NCBI GenBank assembly: GCA_030532825.1
Contig: JAUNKK010000013.1
Span: forward strand, 1 to 53,219
Length of the DNA stretch: 53,219 nt
Reading direction: 5' to 3'
Source: Propionibacteriaceae bacterium
GTDB taxonomy: Bacteria; Actinomycetota; Actinomycetes; Propionibacteriales; Propionibacteriaceae
Below, one piece after another: positions 590-51,672 of this stretch (the first letter of the stretch is position 1; each line of letters opens with the position of its first letter). The notes beneath the pieces were generated by a model. That model was not told the DNA's origin, did not search any database, and was given only the letters and a program-made list of their open reading frames with translations. The position numbers and the translations under genes are program-made.

Positions 590-685
590 AATTTCGTGAT
601 GGGCATGGAGTTCCAGGGGGTTCCTGTGGTACGGTTGAAGCGGCTGCAAAACTGCCGTCGAGGTTGCAAGACAGACGTTATCAAT

Positions 686-690
686 GGAGG
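686..690 (+). promoter_or_regulatory. RBS that sets the start of the TetR-type gene
   Basis: GGAGG lies 5 bases before the ATG at 696. An in-frame ATG at 684 overlaps this Shine-Dalgarno sequence and has none of its own, so 696 is the better start. Between the ISL3 end (589) and the gene I see no convincing -35/-10 pair or clear operator palindrome. Confidence 0.7.
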
Positions 691-695
691 TCAGT

Positions 696-1313
696 ATGAC
701 ATCGATGGAAGTTATGAGGGATTCGGCCATGCGGGTCTTCGGATCCCGTGGTCTTGGTGCTGGACTTGAGGAGGTTGCTGCTGATGCGGGTGTCAGCGTC
801 GAGGATCTTATCTCACAGTTCGGATCGGTCGAAGACCTTCAGAAGGCATGCACTGACTATGTGTTCGAGGTAATCGGGAAGACTCACGGATCCTTGAACC
901 CCCATGAGGATATGTTCCAGCACTTGGCGACTGCGGACGAGTACGAACCCGTCGTTCGCTACCTCGCCATGTGTCTTCGCACGGGTGGTGATCTTGCACA
1001 TCAGGTTGTCGATCAGATGATCGCCGATGCGGAGAAGAATCTTGATCAGCAGGTGAAGCATGGAATCATCGTCGACAGTGCGGATCCCAAGGCGCGGGCT
1101 CGTTATCTGACGCTGAGCCAGGCAGGGGCACTGATTATGGAATTCGCGATCGCGGATCCACAAGCTAGTACTATGGAGATCTGGCAGAACCACGTCGCGA
1201 CAACCACATTGCCTGCTCTGGAACTCTACTCGCACGGAATCCTCACTGATGGCGGCGCGATGCTCAACGACTACAAGAGGACCATGGCTTCGGATGTTCC
1301 CGCTGAGCGGTAG
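696..1313 (+). CDS. TetR/AcrR-type transcriptional regulator
   Basis: This 205-aa protein has the TetR layout: a short helix 1 (MRDSAMRVFGSRGLG), then a helix-turn-helix reading LEEVAADAGVSVEDLISQFG and VEDLQKA at about residues 22-55. That matches the family pattern of an IA..AGVS....Y.HF..K..L segment, although LISQFG is an unusual recognition helix. The remaining roughly 150 residues form a helical ligand domain without a recognisable subfamily. It is the first gene of the plus-strand block and ends 5 bases before the PPTase gene, so it is probably co-transcribed with the biosynthetic genes rather than divergent from them. Its target is unknown: its own promoter or the ABC exporter operon at 50198 are the likely candidates, as TetR proteins often sense the exported product. 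Start chosen from the RBS at 686. Confidence 0.85.
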   Translation: MTSMEVMRDSAMRVFGSRGLGAGLEEVAADAGVSVEDLISQFGSVEDLQKACTDYVFEVIGKTHGSLNPHEDMFQHLATADEYEPVVRYLAMCLRTGGDLAHQVVDQMIADAEKNLDQQVKHGIIVDSADPKARARYLTLSQAGALIMEFAIADPQASTMEIWQNHVATTTLPALELYSHGILTDGGAMLNDYKRTMASDVPAER

Positions 1314-1318
1314 TAGCA

Positions 1319-2047
1319 ATGCTGTCCGGATTTTCCGGGCGCGTTCAGCAGTTGGGCTCCGCAGGTTTGCGGCTGTTTGAATCGCGCGATGATCTTGACG
1401 AGCAACTGTTTCCGGTAGAGCAGGACTATATCCGTCGGGCGGTGCCCAAGCGGTTCCAAGAATTTCAAACCGTGCGAGCGCTAGCGAGGCGGGGATTGGC
1501 GGAACTGGGGCGGGTGCGGCCACCGATGGTGCCGGGTGAACGGGGTGAACCGATTTGGCCTCAAGGCATCATCGGATCCATCACCCACTGCGATGGTTAT
1601 CGTGCTGTCATGGTGTCCACGTCCTGTCAGCTCCGCTCCATAGGCATCGATGCGGAGCCCAACTGTCCCCTTTCGACAGGCGTATTTCACCGTATCTCAT
1701 CGCCTGAAGAACGTGACGAGATACGTTTACTGGCGGAGGCTATTCCTCAGGTCTGCGGGGACAGACTGCTTTTCAGTGCAAAAGAGTCGATCTACAAGAT
1801 GTGGTTTCCCGTGGCGCGGAACATGCTGTGGTTTGATCAGGCGTGCGTGCGTCTTCTTCCAGATGGTTCCTTTGATGCAACGCTCTTGGTTCCCGCGGCT
1901 CGGTCGCCAGGTATTCCGCGGCGTGTCATCGGAAGATGGGACCTGTCTGAAGGAATCCTACGAACGATGGTGGACCTCCCACATGCGTCTATCTGTCCCA
2001 TCGAGGAATTGGCCATGGTGCCTGCGCATCTTCGTGACGAGGGTTGA
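1319..2047 (+). CDS. 4'-phosphopantetheinyl transferase (EntD/Sfp-like)
   Basis: This 242-aa protein would transfer the phosphopantetheine arm from CoA to the serine of carrier proteins, activating the dozen ACP domains encoded downstream. Motifs seen: AVPKRFQEFQTVRALAR at about residues 41-57 (the KR-EF-.GR.-AR pattern of EntD-type enzymes), SITHCDGYRAVMVS at about 89-102 (the SHC/THC motif), GIDAEPNC at about 110-117 with the magnesium-binding Asp/Glu, and FSAKESIYKMWFP at about 158-170 (the KES..K motif). All expected metal- and CoA-binding motifs are present, so it should be active. It begins 5 bases after the regulator's stop, without a strong RBS of its own, which suggests translational coupling. 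A PPTase inside the cluster is common for laterally acquired PKS clusters, since the host enzyme may not modify foreign ACPs. Confidence 0.9.
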   Translation: MLSGFSGRVQQLGSAGLRLFESRDDLDEQLFPVEQDYIRRAVPKRFQEFQTVRALARRGLAELGRVRPPMVPGERGEPIWPQGIIGSITHCDGYRAVMVSTSCQLRSIGIDAEPNCPLSTGVFHRISSPEERDEIRLLAEAIPQVCGDRLLFSAKESIYKMWFPVARNMLWFDQACVRLLPDGSFDATLLVPAARSPGIPRRVIGRWDLSEGILRTMVDLPHASICPIEELAMVPAHLRDEG

Positions 2048-2051
2048 GGAG
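2046..2051 (+). promoter_or_regulatory. RBS that sets the start of the PfaD-type gene
   Basis: GAGGAG lies 7 bases before the ATG at 2059. The reading frame is open back to a TTG at 2044, but that codon overlaps the PPTase stop and has no Shine-Dalgarno sequence, so 2059 is preferred. Confidence 0.65.
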
Positions 2052-2058
2052 TGAACGA

Positions 2059-3486
2059 ATGTCGGTGCGCGCTGAAGATCTCGGTAGTCCTGTATTCCGA
2101 CGTCGATACGGAGTCCGCCTGTCGTACGTCGCGGGATCGATGTATCGTGGCATCTCTTCACCAGAGTTGGTAGCAAAAATGGCGACCAGCGGTTTGCTTT
2201 CCTTCCTCGGGTCCGGTGGTCTCTCGGCGTCGGCGCTCGACCATGCAGTGGCAGAGACGCACAGTCGACTGGGGTGGCGGGGAGGATCTTTCGGTATCAA
2301 CTTGCTCGCCTCCCCATCCTGGCCCAGCCGTGAAAACGAAGTGGTGGATCTGTGCCTGTCTCAAGGCATTGACATTGTCGAGACGTCGGCGTTTGTCAGT
2401 GTCACTCCTCCCATGGTGCGGTATCGCCTGACCGGACTCACCGTAGGCCCGCAGGGTGAGGTAGTCGCGCCTCGACGCATCATGGCCAAGGTGTCCAGAC
2501 CCGAAGTTGCCCGCCTGTTCCTCGGTCCGCCACCGGAACCGATCATTCGGCAGTTGCTCGACGCGCGACGCATAACGGAGGACGAGGCCCGGTTGGCCAG
2601 CCGTGTTTCGATGGCCGACAGCATTACCGTCGAGGCCGACTCCGGAGGGCATACGGATCAACGACCGGCGCTGACTCTCCTGCCGGACATCATCAGACTC
2701 CGGGACAAGGTGCAAACCGGAATTCCGCAGGAACACCGCGTCAGCGTCGGCGCAGCGGGCGGACTTGGAACCCCGTCATCCGTGGCGGCGGTTCTTCTGA
2801 TGGGTGCGGACTACGTGCTCACAGGGAGTGTGAACCAGTGCACGGTTGAGGCAGGAACAAGTGATATCGTCAAGGACATGCTCGAAGAGATGGGAACCGC
2901 CGACACCTCCATCGCTCCAGCTGGCGACATGTTCGAAGAAGGCGCCAAGGTGCAGGTGTTGGGAAAGGGAACTCTGTTCGCCCCACGGGGTCGCAAGTTG
3001 TACGAGCTCTACCAGCGGTACTCGTCGTGGGACGACCTCGTTCGTGATGATCCACGTGCCGCTCACCAGATCCAGGAGAAGTGGCTGGGAAAGAGCTTTG
3101 ACGAAGTGTGGCAGGAGACATGTGCCCGCTATGCCCTCCATCGGATGGATGAGATCGAGCGGGCAGAGCGGCAGCCCCGCACAAAGATGGGGATGGTGTT
3201 CCGGCGCTACTTTTCGCAGTCGAGCCAGTGGGCGCAGGAGGGTGAGGAGAGCCAACGCGTGAACTTTCAGATTCAGTGTGGTCCTGCGCTAGGAGCTTGG
3301 AATGGTTGCGTACGCGGGACGCGGTTGGAGTCGTGGCGCTCGCGACACGTGGACGAGGTGGCCGAGACTCTGATGCAGGGTGCCGCTGAGCATCTCGAAA
3401 TAGCGTTGGGCCGATACCGGCCCGGCAACATGGAGGCGGATTCCTCGAAATCTTCGATCAATGAAAGCACAGGAGGACAGTCATGA
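2059..3486 (+). CDS. PfaD-family trans-acting enoyl reductase
   Basis: This 475-aa flavin-dependent TIM-barrel protein (2-nitropropane dioxygenase/PfaD group) reduces the alpha-beta double bond of ACP-bound enoyl intermediates in trans. Family signatures: an N-terminal FRRRYGVRLSYVAGSMYRGI segment; VSVGAAGGLGTPSSVAAVLL at about residues 232-251; GADYVLTGSVNQCTVEAGTS, the most typical PfaD stretch; then APAGDMFEEGAKVQVLGKGT and LYELYQRYSSWDDL. The length fits stand-alone PfaD proteins. None of the four megasynthases contains an ER domain, so this gene is the only visible source of enoyl reduction. Which module it serves cannot be told from sequence; the modules with DH and KR (M1, M4, M9) are candidates. 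Its last 4 bases overlap the AT gene. Confidence 0.92.
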   Translation: MSVRAEDLGSPVFRRRYGVRLSYVAGSMYRGISSPELVAKMATSGLLSFLGSGGLSASALDHAVAETHSRLGWRGGSFGINLLASPSWPSRENEVVDLCLSQGIDIVETSAFVSVTPPMVRYRLTGLTVGPQGEVVAPRRIMAKVSRPEVARLFLGPPPEPIIRQLLDARRITEDEARLASRVSMADSITVEADSGGHTDQRPALTLLPDIIRLRDKVQTGIPQEHRVSVGAAGGLGTPSSVAAVLLMGADYVLTGSVNQCTVEAGTSDIVKDMLEEMGTADTSIAPAGDMFEEGAKVQVLGKGTLFAPRGRKLYELYQRYSSWDDLVRDDPRAAHQIQEKWLGKSFDEVWQETCARYALHRMDEIERAERQPRTKMGMVFRRYFSQSSQWAQEGEESQRVNFQIQCGPALGAWNGCVRGTRLESWRSRHVDEVAETLMQGAAEHLEIALGRYRPGNMEADSSKSSINESTGGQS

Positions 3487-4367
3487 CCTTGATCCACGTC
3501 TTCCCTGGACAGGGTTCCCAGAGAGTAGGCATGGGTCGTGAAGTGTTTGCCCGCTTCCCGCACCTAGTGACCCAGGCGGAAAAGCAACTGGGGTGGTCTC
3601 TGCGCGATCTCTGTGAGAATGGACCGTCCGAGAAACTCTCCAACACTCGTTACACTCAACCCGCCATCTACGTGGTCAGCGCTTTGAACTATCTCGCCCT
3701 CGTGCGAGACAGCGGCGAGATCCCGACCCTGTTGGCGGGTCATAGTTTGGGTGAGTACACCGCCCTCTTCGCCGGTGGGGCATATGACTTCTTCACGGGC
3801 TTGGAGATCGTCTCGGAACGAGGCCGCCTTATGTCGGAGGCTCCTGCGGGCTCCATGGCGGCGGTCATTGGACTCGACAAGGGGAAAGTCAGCGATGTAT
3901 TGAACCAGAGGATGGGTCAAGCTGGCGTGGAATTGGTTAATTTGAACCTGATCGACCAGGTCGTTATCGCGGGCGCACCGGAAGCGTTGGAAGAAGCGGT
4001 CCCCACCCTTAAAGAGGCAGGAGCGGCGACTGTCGCCCGACTGTCGGTGAGCGGAGCGTTCCATTCCAGCCTCATGAGCGAACCCGCAAAAATATTTCGG
4101 AAATTCCTCGCTGGTTACAGGTTTAACAAGTTAAGGATATCGACTCTTTCCGACATTACCGCCGCGCCACATGAGCAGGCGACGCTGCACGAACTGCTCA
4201 GTCGCCAAATGACGGAGCCGGTGAATTGGACCGGCTGCATGGACCATATGCTCCGCCAGCCCGATCCCGAGATCGTGGACGTCGGGCCAGGCAGGGTCTT
4301 GGCACAGTTGGTGGCCAAGCACAGGGCCGCTTCAGGCAGTCTTGAAGCCCAGGGGGCGAGGCGATGA
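3483..4367 (+). CDS. Free-standing malonyl-CoA:ACP transacylase (trans-AT)
   Basis: This 294-aa FabD-like acyltransferase would load malonyl-CoA onto every extender ACP of the AT-less modules. FPGQGSQRVGMG at residues 7-18 is the oxyanion-hole region; GHSLGEYTALFAGGA around residue 86 carries the catalytic serine; GAFHSSLM near residue 195 holds the catalytic histidine, and the GAFH form goes with malonyl rather than methylmalonyl selection; VDVGPG lies near the C-terminus. AGGAT AGGAGG-type ribosome binding (AGGAGG at 3471-3476) precedes the ATG by 6 bases. It is a single AT, not a fused tandem AT or an AT-ER as in some trans-AT clusters. The start overlaps the end of the pfaD-type gene and its stop overlaps the first PKS gene (ATGA), so the three are translationally coupled. 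Confidence 0.94.
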   Translation: MTLIHVFPGQGSQRVGMGREVFARFPHLVTQAEKQLGWSLRDLCENGPSEKLSNTRYTQPAIYVVSALNYLALVRDSGEIPTLLAGHSLGEYTALFAGGAYDFFTGLEIVSERGRLMSEAPAGSMAAVIGLDKGKVSDVLNQRMGQAGVELVNLNLIDQVVIAGAPEALEEAVPTLKEAGAATVARLSVSGAFHSSLMSEPAKIFRKFLAGYRFNKLRISTLSDITAAPHEQATLHELLSRQMTEPVNWTGCMDHMLRQPDPEIVDVGPGRVLAQLVAKHRAASGSLEAQGARR

Positions 4368-7300
4368 GTTCGGTGGTCGTGTCATCAGAGAGTATCGAGC
4401 AATTTGCGGCGCTGAGTGGTGACCTGAATCCGCTCCATACGAACTTTTCCTATGCCCGTGCTACCCCATTTGGGAGGCCTGTGGCACACGGCGCGTTGGC
4501 TGTCCTCTACTGTCTCGCCCAACTCCCAGAGCGTGACGGCCAGTTGTCACGCCTTGAAGTCTCCTTTTACGAGCCCGTTTTCCCAGAAACCGCATACTCA
4601 TTGGAGATCACGGACGGCGCCGGGAGCGAGCCCGAGCTGGTGCTACGCGACGGTCAGCGACGAGTCTTGGCGGCAACCTGTGAGTTCCGGTTCGGGGGTA
4701 TGCCCTGCGATGCCCGCCCCACTGCGGAGGGCACTACGGTCGGGCGTAGGTCCATCAGTCGGGACCTCGAGCCCACAGACATCGTGAAGGGCATGACCCA
4801 GGCCGGTGTCTACGGCTGCGTTCCGGAGGACGTTTCCGCGCTGATGAGTGCGCTGGGTCTGCACGGGCGTGGTGTTAGCAACTTTCATGTGCAGGCTCTG
4901 GCGTGGTGTAGCTATGGTGTAGGCATGGAGGTTCCTGGAACATCCGCGCTCCTGTCGCGGATCGCAGTGGACCTCTCCGCGGAAGCCCCTGGTGAGGCGG
5001 GCGTGGCGGATGGGTTCTGGGAGGTCGAGGAGCACCATCTCGAGCGTGGAGTTGTCGACCTTCACGGTCAATTGGGGGACACGAGTTGCGGGCGCGTGTG
5101 GGCTGAGGTGGAGGCGAGGGCGTGGGTCCGCCCAAGACTCCCCGAACCGGATGTAGAACTGACCACCGAACTTGTGGGCGAGTCGACCCTGCTAGGGGAC
5201 AAAGTGGCTGTCGTCATCGGAGGCAGTAGGGGCCTTGGTGCCGCGCTGGTGCTTGGTCTCGTGCTACAAGGGGCGACCGTCTATCTGGTGCACAAGTCGA
5301 GCCCGGCTGCAGTCGCCAGGCTGCTGGGAGGTTTGGGATCGCGCAGCACCCAAGTACAGGTGATCGAAGGCGACTGCGCCGATCCGCGATTCTGCAGCGT
5401 CGTGGGGACGAGGATCGCGAACGATCACGGTCGTATCGATATACTCGTGCTCAATGCTGCACCTGCCTTACGTGCGCAGGATCCTGATGTGGAGGCAGGG
5501 CAGCGCCTGGTCAGTTACGTGGATCTGGCGCTGTCCATGGTCACCAGTCCCTTGGCTGCGCTCGGACAGATGGTAGACAGGGCGGCGGGTGCCGTTGTGT
5601 GGGTCTCGAGTTCGGCAGTGACCGAACCCGTTGAGGGCTGGAGCCACTACGTGACGGCGAAGGCGGCGGTGGAGGGACTCGCTCGTTCGGTGAGAACCCG
5701 CTACCCCCACACTCGATCGTTGGTGGTACGACCTCCTCGGCTGCTCACGACGCTCACCTCGTCCGCCCTGGGCGCAGAGGCCGTTCCTCCAGAACGTGTG
5801 GCGGCCAAGGTGGTCCGATGGTTTTGCTCAACCGAAAGGGCCGAAGACGGGATCGCCGTGATGGAGGATTTCTCTGGTTCCGCGGGAGTGCCAGACCCGG
5901 AACCGGCGGAGGGTGGCCACACTGATGTAAGTAGACAGTCCACTCCTGCTATCCAGATCGTGGCCACCTTCACGGCTGATCCTGTGCTGCCTGTGCTCCG
6001 TTGGTGGATGGACAAGCTGGGCCTTGATCTCGAACCACGTCTCAGTCCCTACGCCCAAGTCCTGCAGGAGCTCCTCCTTCCGACAAGTGATATGTCCCGC
6101 AACGCGGGTGGGGTGAACGTGGTCCTGTTGCGCCCCTCGGATTGGCCGGAGAAGAGTCGTACGTCCTTGGTCAAGGATCTTGGGGATGCCGTCCGAGGAG
6201 CTGTGGCTCGTAGTGATGTCCCCCATCTTGTGCTGGTATGTCCTTCTCCTCCGGGGACGGACGGCGTGGAACCAGAAACTGATCGCAGGGTGCTCGAACA
6301 GCTCGGTACACAGCTGGAGGGGATTGCCGGGGCCTATGTGTTCACGACCAATCACTTCGGTCCGCAGTACGTGGGGCGTGAGCACCACGACCACAGCCGG
6401 GATCGTCTGGGTCACTTGCCCTATACGCGAGAGGGTTTTGCCGGGCTAGCGACGATGATTGCCCGCAGCATCAGGGCTCTGCGTAGATCACCCGCCAAGG
6501 TGCTCGTGCTCGATGCAGACAATACCTTGTGGGGCGGGGTATGCAGCGAGGACGGAATAGACGGAGTTCGCGTGGACGAGGAACACCTCGAACTGCAGCG
6601 ATGGGCACTCGAACTCCGAGCTCGTGGCGTTCTGCTCTGTCTGGCCAGCAAGAACCTGGAGCAGGACGTCCACGCGGTGATGGAGCGGCAGGACATGCTG
6701 CTCAGCCCGCACGACTTCGCGGCCGAAAGGGTCAACTGGCTTTCAAAGTCCAGCAATATTCGTGACATGGTCGCTGAATTGGACCTGTCCCTCGACACGG
6801 TGGTCTTTCTTGACGACAACCCGTCTGAGGTTAGCGAGGTAACCGCTCGACTGCCCCAAGTCCTCGGACTGCGTCTGGCCTCCGGATCCGTCGGAGTTCG
6901 AGGCATCATAGACCACACATGGGCATTCGATCAAGTGGAGATCACCTCCGAGGACCGCTGGCGAGCCGATCGATATCAAGAGGCCAGAGTGCGCAAGGAG
7001 TTTCAGGAGTCCTCCCTCGACTTCGCATCCTTCTTGGCCGGGCTACGGCTGCGGATCGACATGCATGAGGCTGCCGAGGCGGATCGTGCGAGGGCGTCTC
7101 AGATGACGTATCGCACCACACAGTTTAACACAACTGGGTTGCGTCTCTCGGTCTCCGAGATTGCCCGCTTGGGGGACCGGGGTGCCTCGTGCTGGGTGGC
7201 CTCTGTCACCGATCGCTTCGGGGACCACGGAACAACCTGTCTCGCCATCACTTCCACATGCCAGGATAGGTTCCTTGTCGAGAACTTTCTGATGAGCTGT

Positions 7301-43600: not shown

Positions 43601-46450
43601 CACATCCGACGTTGCGGTCTCAGCACGGGCAAGACTGGAATCGGACATCTGGAGACGGCCGCCGGGATCGCTGGTCTCGTGCGGGCCGTTCTCGCGCTCG
43701 AGCACAGGATCATCCCTCCACTGTCCGGACTGCATCAGCCGAATGAACTCATCGACCTCACACAGACGCTCTTCGCCTTGGTGACCTCCCCCCAAGCCTG
43801 GGACGTCCCGACTGGTCCGGGCGGCCTAGCCCAGCCTCGCCGTGCCGGCGTCAGCTCTTTCGGGTTCGGTGGTGTGAACGCACACGTGGCCCTGGAGGAA
43901 GCCCCCGAAGCGCCAGCCCCGTCCAAGGGGCCCATGGGACCCTCCGATCACGTGGCGGTATTGTCAGCCAATGATGAGTTCAGCCTGCGGCACATGACTG
44001 AGGCGCTCGTTGAATGGATGGGTCCGCTGGGGCCGGGGCAGGACCTGACCCTTCGAGACGTCACATTCACGCTGCAGGATGGGCGGCCAGAGCGGCAGCA
44101 CCGACTCGCCGCGGTGGCGCAGGATGTCCCAGACCTGGTCCGCAGACTGAGCGGCTGGTTGAAGGGCGACGCCCATGAAGCGGTCTACCACGGGATTGCC
44201 GAGCCGCGGGATCGGCAGCAGGTGTCGACAAAGAGAGACGCATCCGAACTGCCCACCAGCCAGTTCCTCGCAGAGCGTTGGGTCAGAGGAGAGCTGATCG
44301 ACTGGGAAGCGGGCAGGGGAGCGCCAGGCCACAGAGTGAGGCTCCCCGGATACCCATTCGCGACGCATTCCTATTGGTTGACCCCAGAAGAGCAGAGTCG
44401 CCAAGCCCCAGTGCCGAGCGGTACCACAGTGGATCCAGTGCCCTGCCCGGACGCCTCCCCGGTTACGCCTTCGACAACCAAAGCCATCACGGTCCAGCCG
44501 GCCAGTGGAGGAATCGGGAAACGGACGGCACTGGTGCGGTCATTCCGAGGGATCGTCGCCCACCATCTCGAAACGCCTTCAGAAGTCATCGATGAGTATC
44601 AGGACCTCCGGGCTCTGGGGGTCGACTCGATCGCCGGACTGCGTATCATGCAGGCTGTCCAAGCGAAGTACGGCGAGGGCATCCCGATGCTCTCTATCAT
44701 CGAACACCCGACCATTGGGCAGTTTGTCGACAAGGTCCTGCTACCCCTCGATGAAGACAGTGCGACGCTGCGTCCGGACCCGCAGGACGACCCGATCGAG
44801 TACACCCGGTCGCACGACCAGAGTCCGGCACCGGTCTTCCGGCTCTGCGCCGGATCTCGTCCAGAGGCCCCGCCTCTGTTCTGCCTACCAGGTGAAACGG
44901 GCGAGCTCAGCTGGGCGCTTGCCCTTATCGACGAGGAGCGGGACCGCATGACCAACGCCGGAACGGTCTTCGGGATCGAGTCCTCGAGTTTCCGATCGGG
45001 AGATGGGGACTCCGGCCGCAGCTTGGCGGAACGAACATCTGAGTGTGTTCGAGCCATCAAAGCAGAAGTGGGGCAGGAACCGATCCGCCTCATGGCTGCC
45101 GGGAGAGGAGCAGTTCTCGGTATTGAGGTCGCCCGGCTGCTGTCCGACTCCGACAGCCTGATCCAGGATCTGGTGCTGGTGGAACCCCTTCTTGAACTCG
45201 AGCCGACCGGCAGCCCGGACAGTGACTGGTTTGAGGTCGCGCGCGGTTTGGGGCGTGCATGGCAAGTGGAGCTGACGAACTCGGCAGACGGCGCTTCAGC
45301 CGCGCAGCGCGAGGCGGTGGTGGCAGTACTTGCACGCGGTCGCAGTGGGATGGACGCAGAAACCGTCGAGCTCTGGCTCGAACGGTCGACTGCCGAGTGT
45401 CGAGGGCTCCGGAGCGCGCTGACCGTTTGGGATCGATCGCCTCTGGTCTATGCAGCCTCGAAGGTTTCCATCTGGGGTAACTCCGATGTCTGTGATCGCC
45501 TGATCGTCCCTCCACCGATCGAGCAGGCCGCCCCACGAACATCACTGGTGCATCCAGCGGAGTCGACGGTAAGTGTCGTACCCATCAATCGCCAAGGTGG
45601 CCAGGATGCGAGCTTCTGGTGCCACAGTCTGCTGGGCGATGTGAGTTACGCGCTCCACCTATCCAGAAACCTCGGCGTCGATCACCCGTTGTTCGGTTTG
45701 GAGCAGTTCCATCTCGATGGCAGCGCCCAGACCTATAGCCGAGTCGAGCAGCTGGCAGCCGCGCATATCGCAGCTATTCGGGAGGAGGACTCGAGCGGTC
45801 CCTACATCCTGGGCGGCTACTCGATGGGTGGGATTATCGCGTTTGAGACCGCCCGCCAACTCATCCACGCAGGTTCGCAGATCAGTTCCTTGGTGCTGAT
45901 CGATCCGATCATGCCGAACACCCCTGCGTGGCAGGCCATCGAGACGCAGAACATCGAAGGCTACGATTTCGAGCTCGTGGCCCTTGTGCTCGTTGCGAAT
46001 GCGCTAGGGGAGCGTTGGGAAGTGGAGCAGAGCATCTCGCATGAACAGCTGACAGGTCAGGATACGAGGTCCAGGATCGATGAGGTCACCCGACACCTGC
46101 GGCAGGGCTCCGCCAAGCCTCGTTCGGCAGAGGAGATCCGGAGGCTTGTCGAAGCAAATCACAGGGTTATAACGAGGAACAACGCCGCACTGGAGAACTA
46201 CGTGCCCCATGCGCTGGGCATCGATGTCCCCACCCTATTTCTGCGCGCTTCGAAGGGACAGGTTGGGCCCGACAATCCCAATCAGTTACCGATTGTCGGG
46301 CGTCTGCACGATGACCTATCCAATGGCTTTGCCGCATACGTGGGTTCGGTCTTATCTATCAAGGATGTTGACGCCGACCACTTCACGATTTGTGACCAGA
46401 AGCACATCAGTAAGGTGGCGAGCCTGATTCAAGACTTCTGGCGGTCGTGA
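32837..46450 (+). CDS. Trans-AT PKS 4: KR-ACP of module 8, modules 9-11 and tandem TE
   Basis: This 4537-aa protein ends the line. Domains: docking helices (about 10-42, RRTILQAVRDGRLSSNEAL), KR (262-465, Tyr409), ACP (Ser574), KS9 (642-1070, Cys818 in DSACSSS), DH (His1250, Asp1412/His1416), KR (1745-1945, Tyr1890), C-methyltransferase (about 2110-2380, VGAGTGGTT near 2178), ACP (Ser2446), KS10 (2545-2965, Cys2714, no HGTGT His), ACP (Ser3192), KS11 (3263-3690, Cys3427), ACP (Ser3931), a degenerate TE (about 4005-4200) and a second, intact TE (4235-4537, Ser4329, His4515). ATG codons at 32837, 32846 and 32858 are all in frame; 32837 has AAGGAG 8 bases upstream and is used here, but the 5-prime end is uncertain by 7 codons. 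Its stop at 46450 is followed after 56 bases by the monooxygenase gene. Confidence 0.94.
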   Translation: MAVMGGTMSSAAQEQGRRTILQAVRDGRLSSNEALSLLRTQARAPSAQPGMPQDLATGWFEPVWRPSPQGNLFRDDSRRVLIGGFEERPETEHAFVELPRPDLTGNEPHLESCVRSWAEALRWAPSGQNLTNTVVVLDSGRMTAEESLLCATALVRALADLNSVAEARIVWACSGADWQVRCSATAAFGQVVSLEEAGLAWTSVGIDECDSTEVTRISLSEAWLNSPGSAEVRYVNGQRLVKVVERSSAPERSPEATLRTASTWLVSGGAGGLGRLVAKELAGRWAGRLVLLGRRPMDHGISDFCQELEDLGGQACYLSADLTDPTAVTAAVHEGVRRFGPLENVLHLAGISSGGLVRGINREELLAGWAAKVAGANCLDEATREQPLDRFVMFSSSSAYLGAPGQAAYAAASRGLCEFARLRNARVRAGHGSGRSQAIVWPVWEDGGMTLEDWGRAHLTTVTGLAPLPSRAGLDALELVLSSDCVDAFPVVGDLPRFRDFLRSHLCEDGIQPAPVSIAAAPLCEVNGHVAPSRAPVGAEHAVMWLTALVEQTARFPRGSVDPDIPFDVLGIDSLMVRRLGVAMEARLGPQPTSQFYEHRTIRELAGKLAADYPEAFGSAPAQPLSGTDVRPAQESHASVREDIAIIGMAGVFPGARDVDELWDKLFAGQDLVTPVPKERWDNERWYSKRPATPGRTNGKWGGFLEGVAEFDPLFFEISPREAELLDPQERLFLQTAWHAMEDAALSPRMLRNSAEIDGEHRVGVFVGVTSGQYQLLGMEQWAKGNMVSPTSSYWSVANRVSYFLDLNGPSMTIDSACSSSLVALHEACESIHRGESLVAITGAVNLSLHPAKYVALSQSRFLSSDGRCRAFGEGGDGYVPGEGAVAFVLKPISAARRDGDPVRAVIRSTAVNHGGRTNGYTVPGPLAQGAVVARALDAASVDPASISYVEAHGTGTALGDPIEIEGLERAFGTDMVPGGCAIGSVKSNIGHLEAAAGAAGVVKCVLQMQHHTLVPTLHCEPANRNIDWEHSRFRVQRAVEPWQPVNGGTLLATVSSFGAGGTNASLVLESFEDDDEVLSPMLRGSSVVLISARTSDDLRRYARRIREHLDRKTPAPRLVDIAWTLAAGREHLPTRVALRAATNGELRSRLVWLEENGVPDAAYQLDAFEADHRAKAVADWLDGGVVDLQVLFGERCGGRRIHLPGYPFQRDSYWVGEGVPLEEANEVSQTWGEGVPVVVHPDDPVVSQHVVNGRSVVPGVAHVLAMVGAKAIGGWSVEGVRLLRPLLVDRGQSTHAVVASEPGGRVRVLSHHGDSVTVHSTGKVVLAEGLNDIGLGGVESAGTRCTLRVDPASVYAEAASHGLALGPDYQRMTGLWVSPSGDEAVATVAVPADLERDASEGSSWRPAPALDSMLHPLLALAHAESVPRVPQSIERITLYRWPAREAFVHARLRSRRHPGRSALCDVTVHDEQGLCIMVRGLLAVPVPGTTSHDGGDREVVPQTPLGKSSGTIPCLAPVWVMPGEPSAASPILGGAFVLRSEEDFGLGDALLKVHHESAPGALLTVDPADLPDPEQLLQLLVVARPGDTVYLISGMSRRRYSADDPADAMLVQRHTVLLMTRLCQALTAMPDRARGVRVTIVTNDVQQLGEETAWNPFAGGLLGLTHVAAAELPGVFFTAVDVCAADLSGPEQVIAVATTVSQLCPDTSGQELALRTGVVVRKDHVGATLPMPLSARDVLGLGGKYLVIGGAGGLGMAVAQMLVTECSAHVHLVGRRSREELPAEVVSAIDSSPQLHYLQGDVTSESDMRRAALWAAGPDGQLDGVVHAAFVMGDRVLAGLDEERLFEVLAPKIAGSVSLCRALWDLEVNQLIFFSSAISFTGARGQGAYAAASSFMDAYGRYVASRWGRRVTILDWGFWEETGAVATDGYRARMAEQGVVGLSTEKGLGAFATVTGSRLVQVAPFQADSIQENLHLADRSDGFCVEGLREDIQRLQRDSAPLGDSEMLDEMEQVANHALVARTDLLGIPMGGEDPESIAQRLSVVSARRPLLDALLDMLLRRGFVESDGHGTLRPTARGQECRHAAESIPSMILSLRGRYPETQGFSELIDRSTSSIISVLGGAMRGNEVLFPRGSDHLVASVYQGSRRSDYFNSVVYEAVRSLVIRADRPLRIVEVGAGTGGTTDRLLAGLVEHAAKVERYDVTDISPTLVRSASVRYEGHAVSVRTGVLDIEKPPSEQGYDRGSYDVVVATNVFHATRDMVATLTHAADFLRPGGVLLVNEVTRARDFLTLVFGLAEGWWLAQDSHLRIPHSPLLSPGAWRLAATLAGFEHVEIVGAPGDESSNEQMVLLAERNSWTNADQSAELVGVSAPRVSDQGALPITPQGQVPANHDPSLASAPDQSAPGTVSDSLVDRLGTVYESVLGLRGEKIDPDQRLSAYGCDSVASLEVLDRLEQDMGAVPSELVLEATTLTELATKLSAVVTVADGNRFKGAADRVAAVPLKALPAACEVHEQHVGRDSDSPSRTYLQAGSRELNAQPPCSEVAIVGMSGRYPGAKGLDEWWDHLRAGRRSIGEVPPSRWDRAVLRDQISTRWGAFLDDVDHFDSLLFGISPREAVMMDPQARLFLQSVWELLDNAGYPRSRVNAVSHACRGVGVGTFVGSMYNPYELLAAEEWGRGHPVLASSGSWTIANRVSFAFGLDGPSIAVDSACSSSATAIHLACQSLRQGECGMAIVGGVNLILHPGHHLGLAQGGMLSAGGRPLPFSSAADGMVTAEGVGALLLRPLEDAIRDGDRILGCVLTSTSTSSGVRESFLSPHSSTVTEQLRATLRLAGLEPSDIDYVEAQAMGFPAGDAAEAEALRSVIGAAASTTCRVGTMKGLVGHLEAASGVAQVSKVLLQMRHSTIVSSVGASDPFGDDPDLGLRVITEEESWSGSAGHRRIALIDSFGAGGANTQIVIGEAPQRPLTPTTSAKVGNLPFLLSARRSIQLIEVARRLVAVVGGPRSVDLRPQDVAYTLMEGREPLSHRVAVVAADLEELATILRVWLEEPDREIPGLWSSAAPERSSAAGSPAERAAAVWVRGGTPRWASLEVERAQLTELSSYPFAPVRHWFSTTTARIPSPDIQNPTEENGLVSNKNAVPPIAPSGEEFEETGRRSTEVREALANVLQVEASEIEDGDPISDYGLDSVSVVALMDLLRSKHGAQVTASDFYEVRTVADLVRLVTRRAAEPEQALTERPLHPTVAEQNLRQLDAPADADAVAIIGMSARLPGAATADEYWRATLAGRVETRPFPEWRHGLSSKDDTTRIAHRGNFIDGIDEFDPGFFGISPREARLMDPQHRLFLQTAWHAVEDAGYDPGQLAASTTGIFVGVAGNEYGQILQSLGSENDGQLVTGNVHSVLANRVSFLLDLRGPSEPVDTACSSSLVAVHRAVRAIRSGECTMAIAGGVNVLLTDAGFDAFAASGMLSEDGRCRTFDSRADGYVRGEGVGAVLLKPLSAALADGDHIRAVIRGTAVGHGGRATSLSAPEPASQADVIVRAWQEAGGQEGPQYVEAHGTGTRLGDPVEVSGLAMAFEQLCDSGFHIRRCGLSTGKTGIGHLETAAGIAGLVRAVLALEHRIIPPLSGLHQPNELIDLTQTLFALVTSPQAWDVPTGPGGLAQPRRAGVSSFGFGGVNAHVALEEAPEAPAPSKGPMGPSDHVAVLSANDEFSLRHMTEALVEWMGPLGPGQDLTLRDVTFTLQDGRPERQHRLAAVAQDVPDLVRRLSGWLKGDAHEAVYHGIAEPRDRQQVSTKRDASELPTSQFLAERWVRGELIDWEAGRGAPGHRVRLPGYPFATHSYWLTPEEQSRQAPVPSGTTVDPVPCPDASPVTPSTTKAITVQPASGGIGKRTALVRSFRGIVAHHLETPSEVIDEYQDLRALGVDSIAGLRIMQAVQAKYGEGIPMLSIIEHPTIGQFVDKVLLPLDEDSATLRPDPQDDPIEYTRSHDQSPAPVFRLCAGSRPEAPPLFCLPGETGELSWALALIDEERDRMTNAGTVFGIESSSFRSGDGDSGRSLAERTSECVRAIKAEVGQEPIRLMAAGRGAVLGIEVARLLSDSDSLIQDLVLVEPLLELEPTGSPDSDWFEVARGLGRAWQVELTNSADGASAAQREAVVAVLARGRSGMDAETVELWLERSTAECRGLRSALTVWDRSPLVYAASKVSIWGNSDVCDRLIVPPPIEQAAPRTSLVHPAESTVSVVPINRQGGQDASFWCHSLLGDVSYALHLSRNLGVDHPLFGLEQFHLDGSAQTYSRVEQLAAAHIAAIREEDSSGPYILGGYSMGGIIAFETARQLIHAGSQISSLVLIDPIMPNTPAWQAIETQNIEGYDFELVALVLVANALGERWEVEQSISHEQLTGQDTRSRIDEVTRHLRQGSAKPRSAEEIRRLVEANHRVITRNNAALENYVPHALGIDVPTLFLRASKGQVGPDNPNQLPIVGRLHDDLSNGFAAYVGSVLSIKDVDADHFTICDQKHISKVASLIQDFWRS
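34760..40276 (+). other. Module 9: KS-DH-KR-cMT-ACP
   Basis: KS9 reads DSACSSS (Cys818) with EAHGTGT and SNIGHLEAA intact. DH: HVVNGRSVVP (His1250) and DSMLH (Asp1412, His1416), the DxxxH form. KR: GGAGGLG, Tyr1890 in GAYAAAS, with an aspartate at the LDD position (MGD). The methyltransferase has a SAM motif I (VEVGAGTGG from about 2176) and FLRPGGVLLVNE further on. ACP Ser2446 in YGCDSVAS. Expected product: an alpha-methyl alkene, saturated if the PfaD enzyme acts here. Confidence 0.87.
40469..42526 (+). other. Module 10 (probably non-elongating): KS0-ACP
   Basis: KS10 keeps Cys2714 in DSACSSS and the second His (His2887 in VGHLEAAS), but HGTGT is replaced by QAMGF with Gln2849 at the His position. 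Loss of this His is the usual mark of a non-elongating KS in trans-AT lines. The linker then runs straight into an ACP (Ser3192 in YGLDSVSV). No modifying domain is present in cis, making this a candidate docking station for a trans-acting enzyme such as the monooxygenase at 46507. Confidence 0.85.
42623..46450 (+). other. Module 11 and release: KS-ACP-TE(inactive)-TE
   Basis: KS11 is intact (Cys3427, EAHGTGT, TGIGHLETAA) and is followed by ACP Ser3931 (LGVDSIAG). Two alpha/beta-hydrolase TE-like units come next. The first begins PLFCLPGETGELSWAL, but its nucleophile elbow reads AAGRGAV, with Gly4089 where Ser is needed, and the following strand has EP for DP. The second has GYSMGG (Ser4329), LIDP and DADHF (His4515) and is the likely releasing enzyme by hydrolysis or macrolactonisation. 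With no KR the last beta-keto should be kept at release. Confidence 0.85.
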
Positions 46451-46496
46451 CCTTTCGGTCCGCCCGGATCCGTCTCATGAGTTTCGTCGAACATGC

Positions 46497-46502
46497 AAGG
46501 AG
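46497..46502 (+). promoter_or_regulatory. RBS that sets the start of the monooxygenase gene
   Basis: AAGGAG lies 4 bases before the ATG at 46507. The frame is open back to 46447 and includes another ATG at 46477, neither with a comparable RBS. The protein from 46507 starts MKLSIYFFST, a natural first beta strand of this family. Confidence 0.75.
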
Positions 46503-46506
46503 CATC

Positions 46507-47616
46507 ATGAAGTTATCAATCTATTTCTTTTCGACCGAAGACGAGGTATCCAACGAGGATCGGTATGAATTCCTATTCACCGTAGCAGAGCATGCAGACC
46601 GTGTGGGCTATCATGCGCTCTGGACTCCAGAGCGACACTTCCAAGAATTTGGGGGCAGCTATCCAAATCCTGCCGTGTTAAGCGCCGCACTGAGCCGTAT
46701 CACCCGACGGATCGGGCTGCGCGCCGGAAGCGTCGTCATGCCCCATCACCATCCGGCAAGGCTGGTGGAGGACTGGGCGCTTGTCGACCAACTGTCAGGC
46801 GGACGGGTCGGAGTGTGCCTCGCCACGGGCTGGCACAAGGGGGATTTCGTCTTCTACCCCGACCGCTATAAGGACCGTAGAAAGTACACCTTTGATCAGG
46901 TTGACACGCTTCGTGAGCTATGGAAGGGAAACAGCGTCTCCTTTGACGGCCCCTATGGTGAGGATCTGGCGGTGACCACCTTCCCGAGGCCTGTCCAGAG
47001 AGAAATACCGTTGTGGATCGTCCACAGCAGCAACCCGGACACCTGGATTCGCGCCGGTGAGCAGGGCCTCAACGTCCTCTCTCTGCTCGACAACTGGGAC
47101 CGTTTGGAGCAAAACATCAATGCCTACCGTGAGGCACGTGCGAGGGCGGGCCACGAACCGAACGCTGGCACCATTACCCTGGGGCTGCACACCTACGTGG
47201 GGGACGACGACGGCGCAGTGCGTGGGCTCGTGCGTGAGCCGCTCTCTGGCTATCTGTCTTCTTTCCTCAAACAACGTGGTGGCGACGCCGCTTTGCACGG
47301 GGAGTCGAAGTCGATAAGCGAGCAGGAGAAGAAGATCTTGGTGGACAGCGTCTTCGACGACATGTACGAGAATCGGGCCTTGTTCGGTACCCCCGAGCGA
47401 TGCATTGCGATGATCAACAGACTGGCGGCGATTGGAGTGAACGAAGTGGCATGTTTACTCGATTTCGGGCTCCCTTTCGCCACGGTGCTGGAGGGCCTTC
47501 CGAAGCTCGATGAGGTGCTCGCTGCCGTGACGGATCTCGACCACGAGCGTGACCGGGCCAGAAACAGCCTGCAAAGTACGGGGAGAATGGGGTACTACGC
47601 TGTTAGGCGGCAGTAG
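46507..47616 (+). CDS. Luciferase-like flavin monooxygenase of the MupA/natural-product type
   Basis: This 369-aa protein belongs to the bacterial luciferase-like (LLM) flavin oxidoreductases that accompany PKS and NRPS lines. Seen: N-terminal strand MKLSIYFFS; AEHADRVGYHALWTPERHF; GGSYPNPAVLSAALS; RIGLRAGSVVMPHHHPARLVE; DQLSGGRVGVCLATGWHKGD, which is close to the family pattern; IPLWIVHSSNPDTW; and a C-terminal FGTPERCIAMINRLAAIGVNE. It would use reduced FMN from a host reductase and oxygen to hydroxylate or otherwise oxidise an ACP-bound intermediate; MupA in mupirocin assembly is the model. The site is unknown; KS0-ACP modules 5 and 10 are plausible stations. It is the last gene of the plus-strand block, 56 bases after PKS 4, and faces the thioesterase gene across an 18-base convergent gap without a visible terminator hairpin. 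Confidence 0.9.
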   Translation: MKLSIYFFSTEDEVSNEDRYEFLFTVAEHADRVGYHALWTPERHFQEFGGSYPNPAVLSAALSRITRRIGLRAGSVVMPHHHPARLVEDWALVDQLSGGRVGVCLATGWHKGDFVFYPDRYKDRRKYTFDQVDTLRELWKGNSVSFDGPYGEDLAVTTFPRPVQREIPLWIVHSSNPDTWIRAGEQGLNVLSLLDNWDRLEQNINAYREARARAGHEPNAGTITLGLHTYVGDDDGAVRGLVREPLSGYLSSFLKQRGGDAALHGESKSISEQEKKILVDSVFDDMYENRALFGTPERCIAMINRLAAIGVNEVACLLDFGLPFATVLEGLPKLDEVLAAVTDLDHERDRARNSLQSTGRMGYYAVRRQ

Positions 47617-47634
47617 CCTCACGTCTCGAAAATT

Positions 47635-48441
47635 TCACCAGGCGGTCAGGCGGGCGGCCAATGCCTCAGCGACGATCTGGGTGACCTCGTGGGCTCGTGT
47701 CTGGGCGAAAAAATGCCGTCCGCTGGGCAAGGTCCTGAACGTAGCATGCCCCACAGTCAGATCGTTCCACGCTCGAAGACCGGACTCTCTGGTCGTGGGG
47801 TCATCGCAAGCTCCCAATACCAGCAAGTCACTCGAGATGAGACGCGTCGGGTGGCTGAACCGATAAGCTTCGAGCATCTCCATATCTGCGCGTATCGGGG
47901 GAAGAAAAAGGCGTTGGAGCTCAGTGCTGTTGCGCAACAGATCGGGTATGCCCCCATATTTTTCTTGCATTGCGGTCAAGAATCTGGCATCGGAGAGCGA
48001 GTGGAGATCTTCGCCTTTGTGCACGTGGTGCGGCGCCATTCGCCCGGAGAGAATGAGCAATTCAGGCTGTGGTGCGCAATGGACCTCCATCCATTTGGTG
48101 AGTTCGTAGGCTAGCAGCGCACCCAAACTGTGTCCGAAAAGCGCAAAGGGCTCCTCTGTAGAGTCTGCTAGTTGCGGTCCGAGTGCGTTGATGACTTCTT
48201 CCACAGAGGTCATCAAGGGCTCGAGGGAGCGTGACTCGCGGCCCGGCAGTGTTACCGCGACCAAGCGGATCCATGGCGGAAGAAGTGGGACCCAACGAGC
48301 ATATGCCGCCGAACCTGCGCCGGCGTGGGGAAGACACACCAAGGTGGTCTTCCCCACACCGGCATTCCATTGCGTGAACCAGGGACCGGACGCCCAGTCC
48401 CTGTTCGGCCGCCTGGTTGAGTGAAGAGGAGTCGAAGACAC
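47635..48441 (-). CDS. Type II thioesterase
   Basis: This 268-aa alpha/beta hydrolase is the editing kind that removes wrong or stalled acyl groups from PKS carrier proteins. Motifs: TTLVCLPHAGAGSAAYARW at about residues 32-50, the usual N-terminal stretch; FALFGHSLGALLAYEL with the catalytic serine near residue 103; GACDDPTT with the acidic residue; and SGRHFFA with the catalytic histidine near the C-terminus. The start is a GTG at 48441, 9 bases after the permease stop; it has no clear Shine-Dalgarno sequence and is probably coupled to the permease. Being in the exporter operon on the opposite strand, it may be expressed separately from the PKS genes. Confidence 0.92.
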   Translation of the reverse strand: MSSTPLHSTRRPNRDWASGPWFTQWNAGVGKTTLVCLPHAGAGSAAYARWVPLLPPWIRLVAVTLPGRESRSLEPLMTSVEEVINALGPQLADSTEEPFALFGHSLGALLAYELTKWMEVHCAPQPELLILSGRMAPHHVHKGEDLHSLSDARFLTAMQEKYGGIPDLLRNSTELQRLFLPPIRADMEMLEAYRFSHPTRLISSDLLVLGACDDPTTRESGLRAWNDLTVGHATFRTLPSGRHFFAQTRAHEVTQIVAEALAARLTAW

Positions 48442-48450
48442 GGGGCTGGG

Positions 48451-49278
48451 TCAGCCGTGGAGGTCTCTGCGGCAAAATACCCAGTATCCGAGACCGAAGA
48501 GCACGATGGATAGTCCTCCCAGCAGGGCGATGCCGCCCCACCCGCGTCCGGTACTCAACGGATCGTCGCCGAAAGCCCAAGAGTAGGGCGAGATATTTGA
48601 CAGCCATCTCAGTGAGGAACTGGACTTTGACACTGCGTCGAAGGCGTAGCCGGCGACGGTGATGGCTGCTCCCGCGCCGATGGACCAGTTCGGCCGACCT
48701 GTCATTGAACCGACGGCCAGCGCGGTGGATCCGGCCACCAAGGCGAGACCACTCCATGCCACCGTTGCGGTGACGATGTTGCCAGCCGTCAATGAGAGTT
48801 CGGAGGGACTGTTCAGAAGGAGGAGCACGACGACGGTCGTGGCGCTCAGGGCCAAGATCCGGACGACGAGTGTGACGAAGCTTTCCAGCGCGTATTGTCC
48901 ACGACTTACGGCGTGGGAAAGCGTCAGCTCAAGTTGGCCGGAGTCCTCAGCCCCGGCAATCGCCTGAGATCCCCAGATGATGCAAGCCATTGCTGCGAGA
49001 AGAAAGCCGAGCAGGCCGAAGTAGGTAGCTTGGGTGTAACCCGCACCGGTGGCGATTCTGTCGAGGCCGAGGGTTCCTGACATCTGCTTGGGCAGGGAGT
49101 TGATCATGTCGCTCAGCTGTGGGGACTGAACGCTGGGGTAGACGGGCAGATAGAGGAGCAAAGCCAACGCCAGCCCGATGGACCATCCGATGAGTCCCCG
49201 GAGCCCGCTGCGAAGCTGCCAGCGCAGGATCGGCAACGTGGTGCGTTTGTTTGGCGTTTGTGTCATCGCTGTTGTCAT
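48451..49278 (-). CDS. ABC-2 type transporter permease
   Basis: This 275-aa membrane protein shows about six hydrophobic spans: roughly residues 27-47 (LIGWSIGLALALLLYLPVY), 88-107 (LLGFLLAAMACIIWGSQAIA), 137-156, 168-192, 200-213 and 246-267 (GIALLGGLSIVLFGLGYWVF). The end FCRRDLHG is typical of ABC-2 permeases in drug-export pairs. It would form the channel for the adjacent ATPase, exporting the polyketide or giving self-resistance; the substrate is inferred from position only. The ATG overlaps the ATPase stop by four bases, so the two are coupled. Confidence 0.88.
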   Translation of the reverse strand: MTTAMTQTPNKRTTLPILRWQLRSGLRGLIGWSIGLALALLLYLPVYPSVQSPQLSDMINSLPKQMSGTLGLDRIATGAGYTQATYFGLLGFLLAAMACIIWGSQAIAGAEDSGQLELTLSHAVSRGQYALESFVTLVVRILALSATTVVVLLLLNSPSELSLTAGNIVTATVAWSGLALVAGSTALAVGSMTGRPNWSIGAGAAITVAGYAFDAVSKSSSSLRWLSNISPYSWAFGDDPLSTGRGWGGIALLGGLSIVLFGLGYWVFCRRDLHG

Positions 49279-50198
49279 GACAGAGTCTCCGCATTCTCGT
49301 AGAGTTCCAGGACCGACCCCTCGAGATCAGGCTCTTCGAGGGTCAGCTCGCGAATGGTGTGACGCGCGAGGATTTTTACGGCAGAATCCGGCTCCCCGCG
49401 TAGGAGGCCCGATACTTGAATCAGCTGGTCCCCGACTTCACGGACGGCCAGATCCGTGAGGTGTGCTATTTCTTGAAGTTCTGCCTGCACGCGCTGGGCG
49501 TCGGAGCCCTCCAAGACAGAGCGCAGCCGGGAGGATCCGCTAAGCCGTAGCGAGGCGATTTCGCCCTCGGCCACGATGGTACCATGGGCAAGCACTGCCG
49601 CGGCGTCCGCCGTGTGTTGGATTTCGCCGAGGATGTGAGAGCTGAGTAGCACCGTCTGACCGTTCTCCTGAGCCTCGCGAATCATGCTCAGGAACTCACG
49701 CTGCATCAGGGGGTCAAGCCCGCTGGTAGGTTCGTCGAGAATCAGAAGTTCGGGGTGGTGCATAAATGCTTGGATGAGTCCGAGCTTCTGACGGTTTCCC
49801 TTTGACAGGGTTCGAACGGGGCGGTGCAGGTCGAGTTCTAGACGCTCTGCTAACTCCTGGATCGTGCCGGATGTGACAGGACCACTGATGCTGGCGAAGT
49901 GCTCCAGCACTGATTCGGCAGGGATGCGTTCGGTGAGTTTTATCTCGCCCGGAAGGTAGCCGATTCGGCGTCGTAGCTCAGGTTTCGAGGACCGAGGAGC
50001 TTCGCCTAGGACGGACACGGTACCGTCGTCAGGGCGGATGATGTCCACCAACATTCGAAGAGTCGTGGACTTTCCTGCGCCGTTGGGTCCAATTAGGCCA
50101 TAAATGCTACCGCGCTCGACCGTGAGGTCAATGCCGCGGACAGCATGGACCTTTCCGAATGACTTGCGCAGTCCTCTGGTTTCAATGACTGCTTTCAT
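49275..50198 (-). CDS. ABC transporter ATP-binding protein (drug-exporter type)
   Basis: This 307-aa ATPase has Walker A GPNGAGKST at about residues 37-45, a Q-loop region GYLPGEIKLTE, signature LSKGNRQK near 134, Walker B LLILDEPTSGLD near 150, and the switch histidine in LLSSH. The C-terminal 90 residues match the accessory region of DrrA-like exporters. It energises the permease encoded immediately downstream. A strong RBS (AGGAG, plus-strand 50205-50209) lies 6 bases before the ATG. It is the first gene of the three-gene minus-strand operon; its promoter must lie between here and the IS5 remnant. Confidence 0.93.
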   Translation of the reverse strand: MKAVIETRGLRKSFGKVHAVRGIDLTVERGSIYGLIGPNGAGKSTTLRMLVDIIRPDDGTVSVLGEAPRSSKPELRRRIGYLPGEIKLTERIPAESVLEHFASISGPVTSGTIQELAERLELDLHRPVRTLSKGNRQKLGLIQAFMHHPELLILDEPTSGLDPLMQREFLSMIREAQENGQTVLLSSHILGEIQHTADAAAVLAHGTIVAEGEIASLRLSGSSRLRSVLEGSDAQRVQAELQEIAHLTDLAVREVGDQLIQVSGLLRGEPDSAVKILARHTIRELTLEEPDLEGSVLELYENAETLS

Positions 50199-50706: not shown

Positions 50707-50739
50707 TGGATCGTCCCGAGTTTTGTGGGGGGTGTGTAG

Positions 50740-51638: not shown

Positions 51639-51672
51639 GAGCCTGTCAAGTTTTCTGTGTAAGCGGGTTTGA

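Follow-up and report, generated by a model that had tools for sequence, protein, structure and literature searches.

What does the trans-acyltransferase (trans-AT) polyketide synthase (PKS) locus on contig JAUNKK010000013.1 of a Propionibacteriaceae bacterium (assembly GCA_030532825.1) make, and is the compound new? The stretch analysed, called the window below, is this contig at its full length of 53,219 nucleotides (G000:C125; G, C and L numbers are our handles for genomes, contigs and loci). It belongs to a 3.33-Mb assembly of 219 contigs with 97.5% completeness and 2.0% contamination. A preliminary description of the DNA had held that the module order matches no known product and that the compound may therefore be new. 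The same order is found in a genome that is probably Teredinibacter turnerae, and the locus is read here, at a probability of about 0.9, as a tartrolon-type macrodiolide pathway. On this reading the contig is a further carrier for a pathway already described, that of the tartrolon antibiotics, ring-shaped molecules that bind boron, and does not point to a new compound class.

The assembly line and its counterpart in a probable Teredinibacter genome

Four collinear megasynthase open reading frames (ORFs) of 4413, 2383, 2736 and 4537 aa (sum 14,069 aa) lie on the plus strand from 4364 to 46450. They contain no internal stops or frameshifts, and the line thus looks functional. At E ≤ 0.001, Pfam detected no acyltransferase (AT) domain in these proteins, and the combination of multimodular AT-less PKSs with a separate free AT is that of a trans-AT PKS. 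With Pfam and with hidden Markov models built on the window's own domains, the full order, in which a slash marks a protein boundary, was read as MaoC-SDR-FkbH-ACP; KS1-DH-KR-ACP; KS2-KR-ACP; KS3 / DH-ACP; KS4-DH-KR-ACP; KS5 / ACP; KS6-KR-ACP; KS7-ACP; KS8 / KR-ACP; KS9-DH-KR-MT-ACP; KS10-ACP; KS11-ACP-TE*-TE (SDR, short-chain dehydrogenase/reductase; ACP, acyl carrier protein; KS, ketosynthase; DH, dehydratase; KR, ketoreductase; MT, methyltransferase; TE, thioesterase). The module of KS3 is split across PKS1 and PKS2, and the MT of module 9 is the only one found in the line. TE* denotes a TE-like first part that lacks the serine of the nucleophile motif and is followed by a TE with GYSMGG. 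It was read by eye against related lines; the TE model finds this first copy in Streptomyces anulatus and Salinispora fenicalii, and neither in the window nor in Teredinibacter.

Catalytic residues are kept throughout the domains checked at residue level (KR, DH, MT and ACP, with the SDR and MaoC of the loading module outside that check): the serine in 12 ACPs, Ser/Tyr/Lys in 6 KRs, His and Asp in 4 DHs, and the S-adenosylmethionine (SAM) motif of the MT. Motif reading found nine of the eleven KSs intact; KS5 is without both catalytic histidines and KS10 without the first. KS3 was also considered as the non-extending KS of a dehydrating bimodule and dropped, since its motifs show no loss and nine extensions are required to reach C44.

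The order is identical, beginning with MaoC-SDR-FkbH-ACP and ending with KS11-ACP-TE, in a three-PKS cluster of the probable T. turnerae genome, at approximately 2.283–2.332 Mb of G750:C1 (PKSs at 2.286–2.332 Mb); the models detect the MaoC (24 bits) and the loading ACP (14 bits) of this line weakly. In the line from Teredinibacter, as in the window, a catalytic histidine is missing from KS5 and KS10 alone; its KS5 has Ser and Thr at the two positions and its KS10 has Ser at the His of HGTGT. The two clusters further share the single MT, the C-terminal TE, a luciferase-like monooxygenase (LLM), a trans-AT, a PfaD-type enoyl reductase (ER) and a type II TE (TE II). When only Teredinibacter KSs were compared, nine of the eleven window KSs were closest to the KS at the same position. 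The accessible text of PMC6235255 names the tartrolon PKSs trtDEF, three proteins, which fits the three PKSs of the Teredinibacter cluster, and T. turnerae is given as a producer of tartrolons D and E in the accessible parts of PMC7274485 and PMC9692312. An unrecognised module order can thus no longer be upheld, and the new compound derived from it is not supported: in substance, this line is what the preliminary description had set as its own refutation, a cluster already known whose modules run in the same series and whose KSs match.

The Teredinibacter cluster was located among genomes of the order that includes Pseudomonas batumici, where four of 293, G750 among them, matched the loading module at E ≤ 1e-60 and none over its full length. 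The match in G671 scores the same as that in G750 (20 kb fetched). Two genomes with FkbH matches, G645 and G623, were set aside as carrying other PKSs, as far as the models see on the stretches fetched.

Several observations weigh against a tartrolon-type assignment. The naming of G750 as T. turnerae was inferred, partly from gene content. The best long PKS alignments to Teredinibacter are only 31–36% identical, and that of the loading module 28%. For KS5 and KS7, the Teredinibacter KS closest by identity is not the positional counterpart. The FkbH motif of the window (6512–6535) reads DADNTLW, and DCDNTLW in the four other lines compared. Gene organization also differs, with the window's PKS2 and PKS3 forming one protein in Teredinibacter. 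There, LLM, TE II and ER follow the PKSs, the ER at the 3' end, and the AT lies upstream on the other strand; the placement of ER, AT and TE II is unlike in the two clusters. No PPTase (4'-phosphopantetheinyl transferase), TetR or ABC genes were detected by the models beside the Teredinibacter cluster. In a FastTree of 199 KSs, window KS9 groups with a KS of another line from the same family (0.88). Of the Teredinibacter KSs, KS6 is not part of the KS6 clade, and KS10 is joined at a node with a support of 0.22.

The same tree placed ten of the eleven window KSs with their positional counterparts, Teredinibacter KS3 entering the KS3 group only along with KSs of two other loci. The window KSs were compared with a pool of 188 others. 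Other named loci supplied 101 of these, and one such locus (L076) apparently contains an additional related line. Against this pool, the best match of each of the eleven window KSs was the positionally equivalent KS in a related line (eight in Phytohabitans, one in Streptomyces niveus and two in S. anulatus); for lines with nine KSs, correspondence was set by order and KS identities. By comparison, the KSs of three PKS regions from the host's Genome Taxonomy Database (GTDB) family had their best matches inside these lines in 5 of 14, 1 of 10 and 0 of 14 cases. In this pool, which was assembled without a deliberate cis-AT set, the window KSs are nearest to KSs of other trans-AT lines. That the line makes an unrelated new polyketide, and that chance or module shuffling gave it a trt-like domain order, is very improbable. 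Trans-AT modules are generally known to recombine often and the placement of KS9 is not clean; against this stand the positional best matches of all eleven KSs and the shared loading module, LLM and terminal TE region. A local recombination of KS9 with a PKS of the same family, suggested by the one tree node, was rejected: its best BLAST match is the positional KS7 of Streptomyces, and the tile scores show no clear switch.

Predicted product and competing structures

Module functions were read from the domain order, and the product is predicted on that basis. FkbH would load a C3 unit, which the MaoC/SDR part may turn into a lactyl starter. Nine of the eleven KSs would extend the chain with malonyl units from the free AT, and KS5 and KS10, to judge from their lost histidines, would only hand it on. 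Each β-carbon would be set by the KR and DH domains together with the trans-acting ER, and the MT of module 9 would provide the sole methyl branch. The finished chain would be a 22-carbon hydroxy acid, two copies of which may be joined by the active C-terminal TE to give a C44 macrodiolide. The LLM probably installs a C2 hydroxyl that would aid borate binding; the ABC pair is proposed to export the product, as self-protection, and the TetR protein is a putative regulator of the locus.

The carbon count is 3 + 9×2 + 1 = 22 per half, with a C3 starter assumed, nine intact KSs and one MT, and predicts a C44 dimer. The calculated [M+Na]+ of C44H68O14, a formula that is our own fit to the mass of tartrolon D, is 843.4501. 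For tartrolon D, the accessible text of PMC9692312 lists an [M+Na]+ of 843.449 in Streptomyces; the value for T. turnerae strains, a putative identification by mass spectrometry, is 843.451. Tartrolons A and B have 23 carbons per half according to the available part of PMC11970672, a number that would be consistent with an additional methyl, such as the Phytohabitans line would add.

The action of the trans-ER and of the monooxygenase does not follow from the domain order. A new congener, in which the C22 skeleton is kept and the oxidation/reduction pattern or geometry is different, is accordingly a serious possibility, somewhat short of even odds. The protein identity to the Teredinibacter PKSs is only 31–36%, the numbers of KSs (9, 10 or 11) and MTs vary among related lines, and boron macrodiolides differ in methylation, ring size and oxidation state (PMC7274485, accessible text). 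Speaking for an unchanged structure are the agreement in domain order and degenerate KSs with Teredinibacter and the retention of catalytic residues in the window's KR, DH, MT and ACP domains.

Boromycin and aplasmomycin are C40 structures, for which seven extending KSs and a second MT would be expected. A line of this type, with a C17 chain and gem-dimethyl groups, is suggested by the related 9-KS lines of Streptomyces and Salinispora, which have a second MT and agree with this class in carbon count. The window itself has eleven KSs, nine of them intact; its module 1 includes a DH, and its module 7 lacks an MT. It thus contains neither seven extending KSs nor a second MT, and such a product is scarcely credible here.

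Tartrolons are known from shipworm bacteria and Streptomyces, and on the tartrolon-type reading the window extends them to a carrier distant from the producers described so far. In the available parts of PMC11970672 and PMC7274485, tartrolons A and B are described as potassium ionophores and tartrolon E as strongly anti-apicomplexan. A diverged copy of the assembly line may also serve as a reference for testing domain functions.

Related lines in actinobacteria

A pattern-based scan with ER alignment covered 84,980 genomes, and the best 80 of 203 relatives were kept. Among these 80, the top ER relatives are only 51–52% identical, and thus the scan turned up no close sister. A search for the loading module in 48 genomes behind ER loci gave 22 matches at E ≤ 1e-30. 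Near end-to-end matches of 39–40% identity were found in Salinispora fenicalii, S. anulatus and Streptomyces sp. McG3; in Phytohabitans flavus residues 9–985 are covered at 41%, and in S. niveus the module is covered in two pieces. The clusters of four of these five, McG3 being left aside, were fetched and compared. All four lines hold the ER, AT, loading module and ABC pair as the window does, and LLM and TE II where the stretch reaches the 3' end. For the LLM, identity is 54–62% to its counterparts in the four other lines for which the gene lies on the stretch fetched, and the ABC ATPase is 48% identical to the Phytohabitans copy.

The P. flavus line (L027, G419:C1) shares the 11-KS series, loading module, LLM, TE II and ABC pair, and its KSs are the closest to those of the window (mean 57% over 10 whole KSs). 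It differs by an additional MT in module 7 and by ORFs that are broken in the record, apparently by frameshifts. Of the 100 kb fetched for the L027 region (L157–L161), the tartrolon-type line takes up approximately 13–63 kb; about 16 kb beyond it, at 79–100 kb, lies another trans-AT PKS. The S. anulatus and S. fenicalii lines have the loading module, KS1–3, ABC pair, LLM, TE II and TE-TE in common with the window, but contain nine KSs, with counterparts of KS5 and KS7 absent. They also have a second MT, and in module 1 no DH was detected. The S. niveus line, a third of this kind with the same differences, shares the loading module, KS1–3 and ABC pair, and its contig stops after KS7.

The lines with nine or ten KSs form an actinobacterial family with a common loading module and second MT (regions L052, L028 and L037, with L148–L156 and L162–L164; G897, L208–L211; G967, L212–L213). 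If KS4 and KS8 do not extend, the complete 9-KS lines give a C17 chain by count, which would fit boromycin/aplasmomycin better than tartrolon, and these lines are candidate boromycin/aplasmomycin clusters on their sequences. Their KS4 and KS8 have altered HGTGT motifs, yet the His is kept in KS4 and in Salinispora KS8. An intermediate form is seen in G967, of the genus Streptomyces, with 10 KSs before the contig end. A search of the open literature by term found no paper joining trans-AT and boromycin. The window anchors an actinobacterial family whose lines contain 9, 10 or 11 KSs; their numbers of KSs and MTs seem to follow the chain lengths of the boron macrodiolides.

The loading module was also searched for by taxon. 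Of 246 genomes from the genus to which S. anulatus belongs, 5 contain it at E ≤ 1e-100 (nearly whole in four, S. anulatus included), as do 2 of 394 in the host's class, namely the host itself and a partial match 64 bases from a contig end. In the host's order, 9 of 391 genomes matched at E ≤ 1e-30, the host included, and the other eight only in the FkbH part. Within the host's family, a PfaD-type ER was present at E ≤ 1e-20 in 5 of 198 genomes, the host again included, and the other four copies are 43–50% identical. Three of these four genomes were rejected as relatives, their trans-AT lines being of different architecture; in the fourth (G050), an incomplete KS-ACP ORF at the edge was all that the 60 kb fetched revealed. 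No paper on trans-AT polyketides in Propionibacteriaceae was found by a term search of the open literature.

Two further trans-AT loci were noted in passing. A closed genome of the window's genus (G023; L004, L011–L014) contains a trans-AT PKS cluster unlike that of the window, in which AT and ER are fused and which includes 14 KSs of 340 aa or more. In a metagenome-assembled genome labelled Propionicimonas (L048, G154:C80), 2 of 14 trans-AT KSs are 99–100% identical to KSs of Actinomyces israelii (L051), and this contig may be mis-binned or recently shared. GTDB places that genome in the host's family, Propionibacteriaceae, whereas NCBI taxonomy lists Propionicimonas under Nocardioidaceae.

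Host, flanks and gene content

The G+C content of the window is 62.7%, versus a contig mean of 65.0% (standard deviation 1.4, range 62.9–67.2) over 18 contigs of at least 5 kb; 27 contigs had been drawn, of which five, mostly N, were dropped and four were shorter than 5 kb. The tetranucleotide signature is a stronger sign of foreign origin than G+C. The correlation of the window with a 209-kb sample of the assembly is 0.54; 14 single contigs give 0.73–0.93, and a PKS region of the same genus gives 0.82. When 74 named loci were compared with the window, the highest correlation was 0.64, for a Streptomyces. The window is compositionally unlike its assembly, which points to recent acquisition or to a mis-binned contig. 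The transfer that had been suggested from a G+C contrast is thus consistent with composition, as is mis-binning, although the contrast itself is small.

A contaminant contig, by which the cluster would come from another bacterium, is compatible with a tartrolon-type pathway and seems to us plausible, though somewhat improbable. The low tetranucleotide correlation, below that of the assembly contigs, the 2.0% contamination over 219 contigs, and an insertion sequence (IS) at the right end that recurs elsewhere in the assembly only as partial copies of 70–91% identity speak for it. Recent transfer predicts the same signature, and the G+C of the window is barely under the range of the sampled contigs. 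That a diverged line was recently acquired whole by a non-Streptomyces actinobacterium and makes a new boron-binding C44 congener is a tentative proposal and, taken together, unlikely.

The locus had been described as bounded by IS debris, and this holds for the right side only, where approximately 50.6–53.0 kb contains rve pieces and a broken IS256/Mutator transposase. On the left, five ORFs tested in the 684 bases had no Pfam match. The window is the whole contig, and both bounds are therefore assembly ends. In the plasmid set, 401 records matched the right-end IS, three of them in the 80–90% band; the 20 matches listed are 64–74% identical and are for the most part IS256 elements, from actinobacteria and some proteobacteria. 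A plasmid copy of the cluster was also considered and dropped, there being no near (megablast) match to window positions 4364–24000 in that set.

The remaining gene content agrees with the preliminary description. TetR, PPTase, PfaD-type ER and free AT genes lie upstream of the PKS genes, and the monooxygenase, TE II and ABC exporter pair downstream (Table 1). The accessory functions named there (free AT, PfaD-type ER, PPTase, flavin monooxygenase, type II TE, exporter and regulator) were found by Pfam and NCBIfam, as were four AT-less megasynthases of about 14,000 residues. An apparently complete trans-AT cluster in a non-streptomycete actinobacterial assembly is thereby supported, with the adjustment that the start placed at 696 falls within the TetR gene (684–1313).

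Table 1. Positions of the genes, domains and flanking elements discussed in the text
Feature	Position	Strand	Domains or motifs	Evidence
TetR-family regulator	684..1313	+		Pfam TetR_C_25 3.6e-34; TetR_N 7.4e-05, slightly below cut-off
Sfp-type 4'-phosphopantetheinyl transferase	1319..2047	+		Pfam 4PPT_N, ACPS; NCBIfam PptT/Npt below cut-off
Trans-acting PfaD-type enoyl reductase	2044..3486	+		NCBIfam pfaD_fam 579.6 bits (cut-off 449)
Free-standing malonyl transferase (trans-AT)	3483..4367	+		NCBIfam fabD 281.8 bits (cut-off 260.9); Pfam Acyl_transf_1
PKS1	4364..17605	+	loading MaoC-SDR-FkbH-ACP; KS1-DH-KR-ACP; KS2-KR-ACP; KS3	Pfam, own HMMs, active sites
Loading module	4364..7963	+	MaoC-SDR-FkbH-ACP	homologues in related lines; NCBIfam FkbH 249 bits (cut-off 147)
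PKS2	17611..24762	+	DH-ACP; KS4-DH-KR-ACP; KS5	Pfam, own HMMs, active sites
KS5, predicted non-extending	23296..24603	+	HGTGT His to Ser, second His to Ala
PKS3	24636..32846	+	ACP; KS6-KR-ACP; KS7-ACP; KS8	Pfam, own HMMs
PKS4	32837..46450	+	KR-ACP; KS9-DH-KR-MT-ACP; KS10-ACP; KS11-ACP; TE-like; TE	Pfam, own HMMs, active sites
C-methyltransferase of module 9	39077..39856	+	SAM motif EVGAGTG	Pfam Methyltransf_12
KS10, predicted non-extending	40430..41740	+	HGTGT His to Gln
C-terminal thioesterase region	44738..46447	+	TE-like part, then TE	TE by Pfam; TE-like part by eye
MupA/Atu3671-family FMN luciferase-like monooxygenase	46447..47616	+		NCBIfam TIGR04020 412.6 bits (cut-off 244)
Type II (editing) thioesterase	47635..48441	-		Pfam Thioesterase 2.5e-34
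ABC-2 type permease	48451..49278	-		Pfam ABC2_membrane_2
ABC ATPase (DrrA-like)	49275..50198	-		Pfam ABC_tran; NCBIfam drrA 183 bits, below cut-off 312
IS debris (flank, outside pathway)	50591..53025	-	rve integrase-core pieces and broken IS256/Mutator transposase

The PKS3 ORF as called opens at a GTG inside PKS2 (24636). The true start is probably the ATG at 24756, which overlaps the PKS2 stop.

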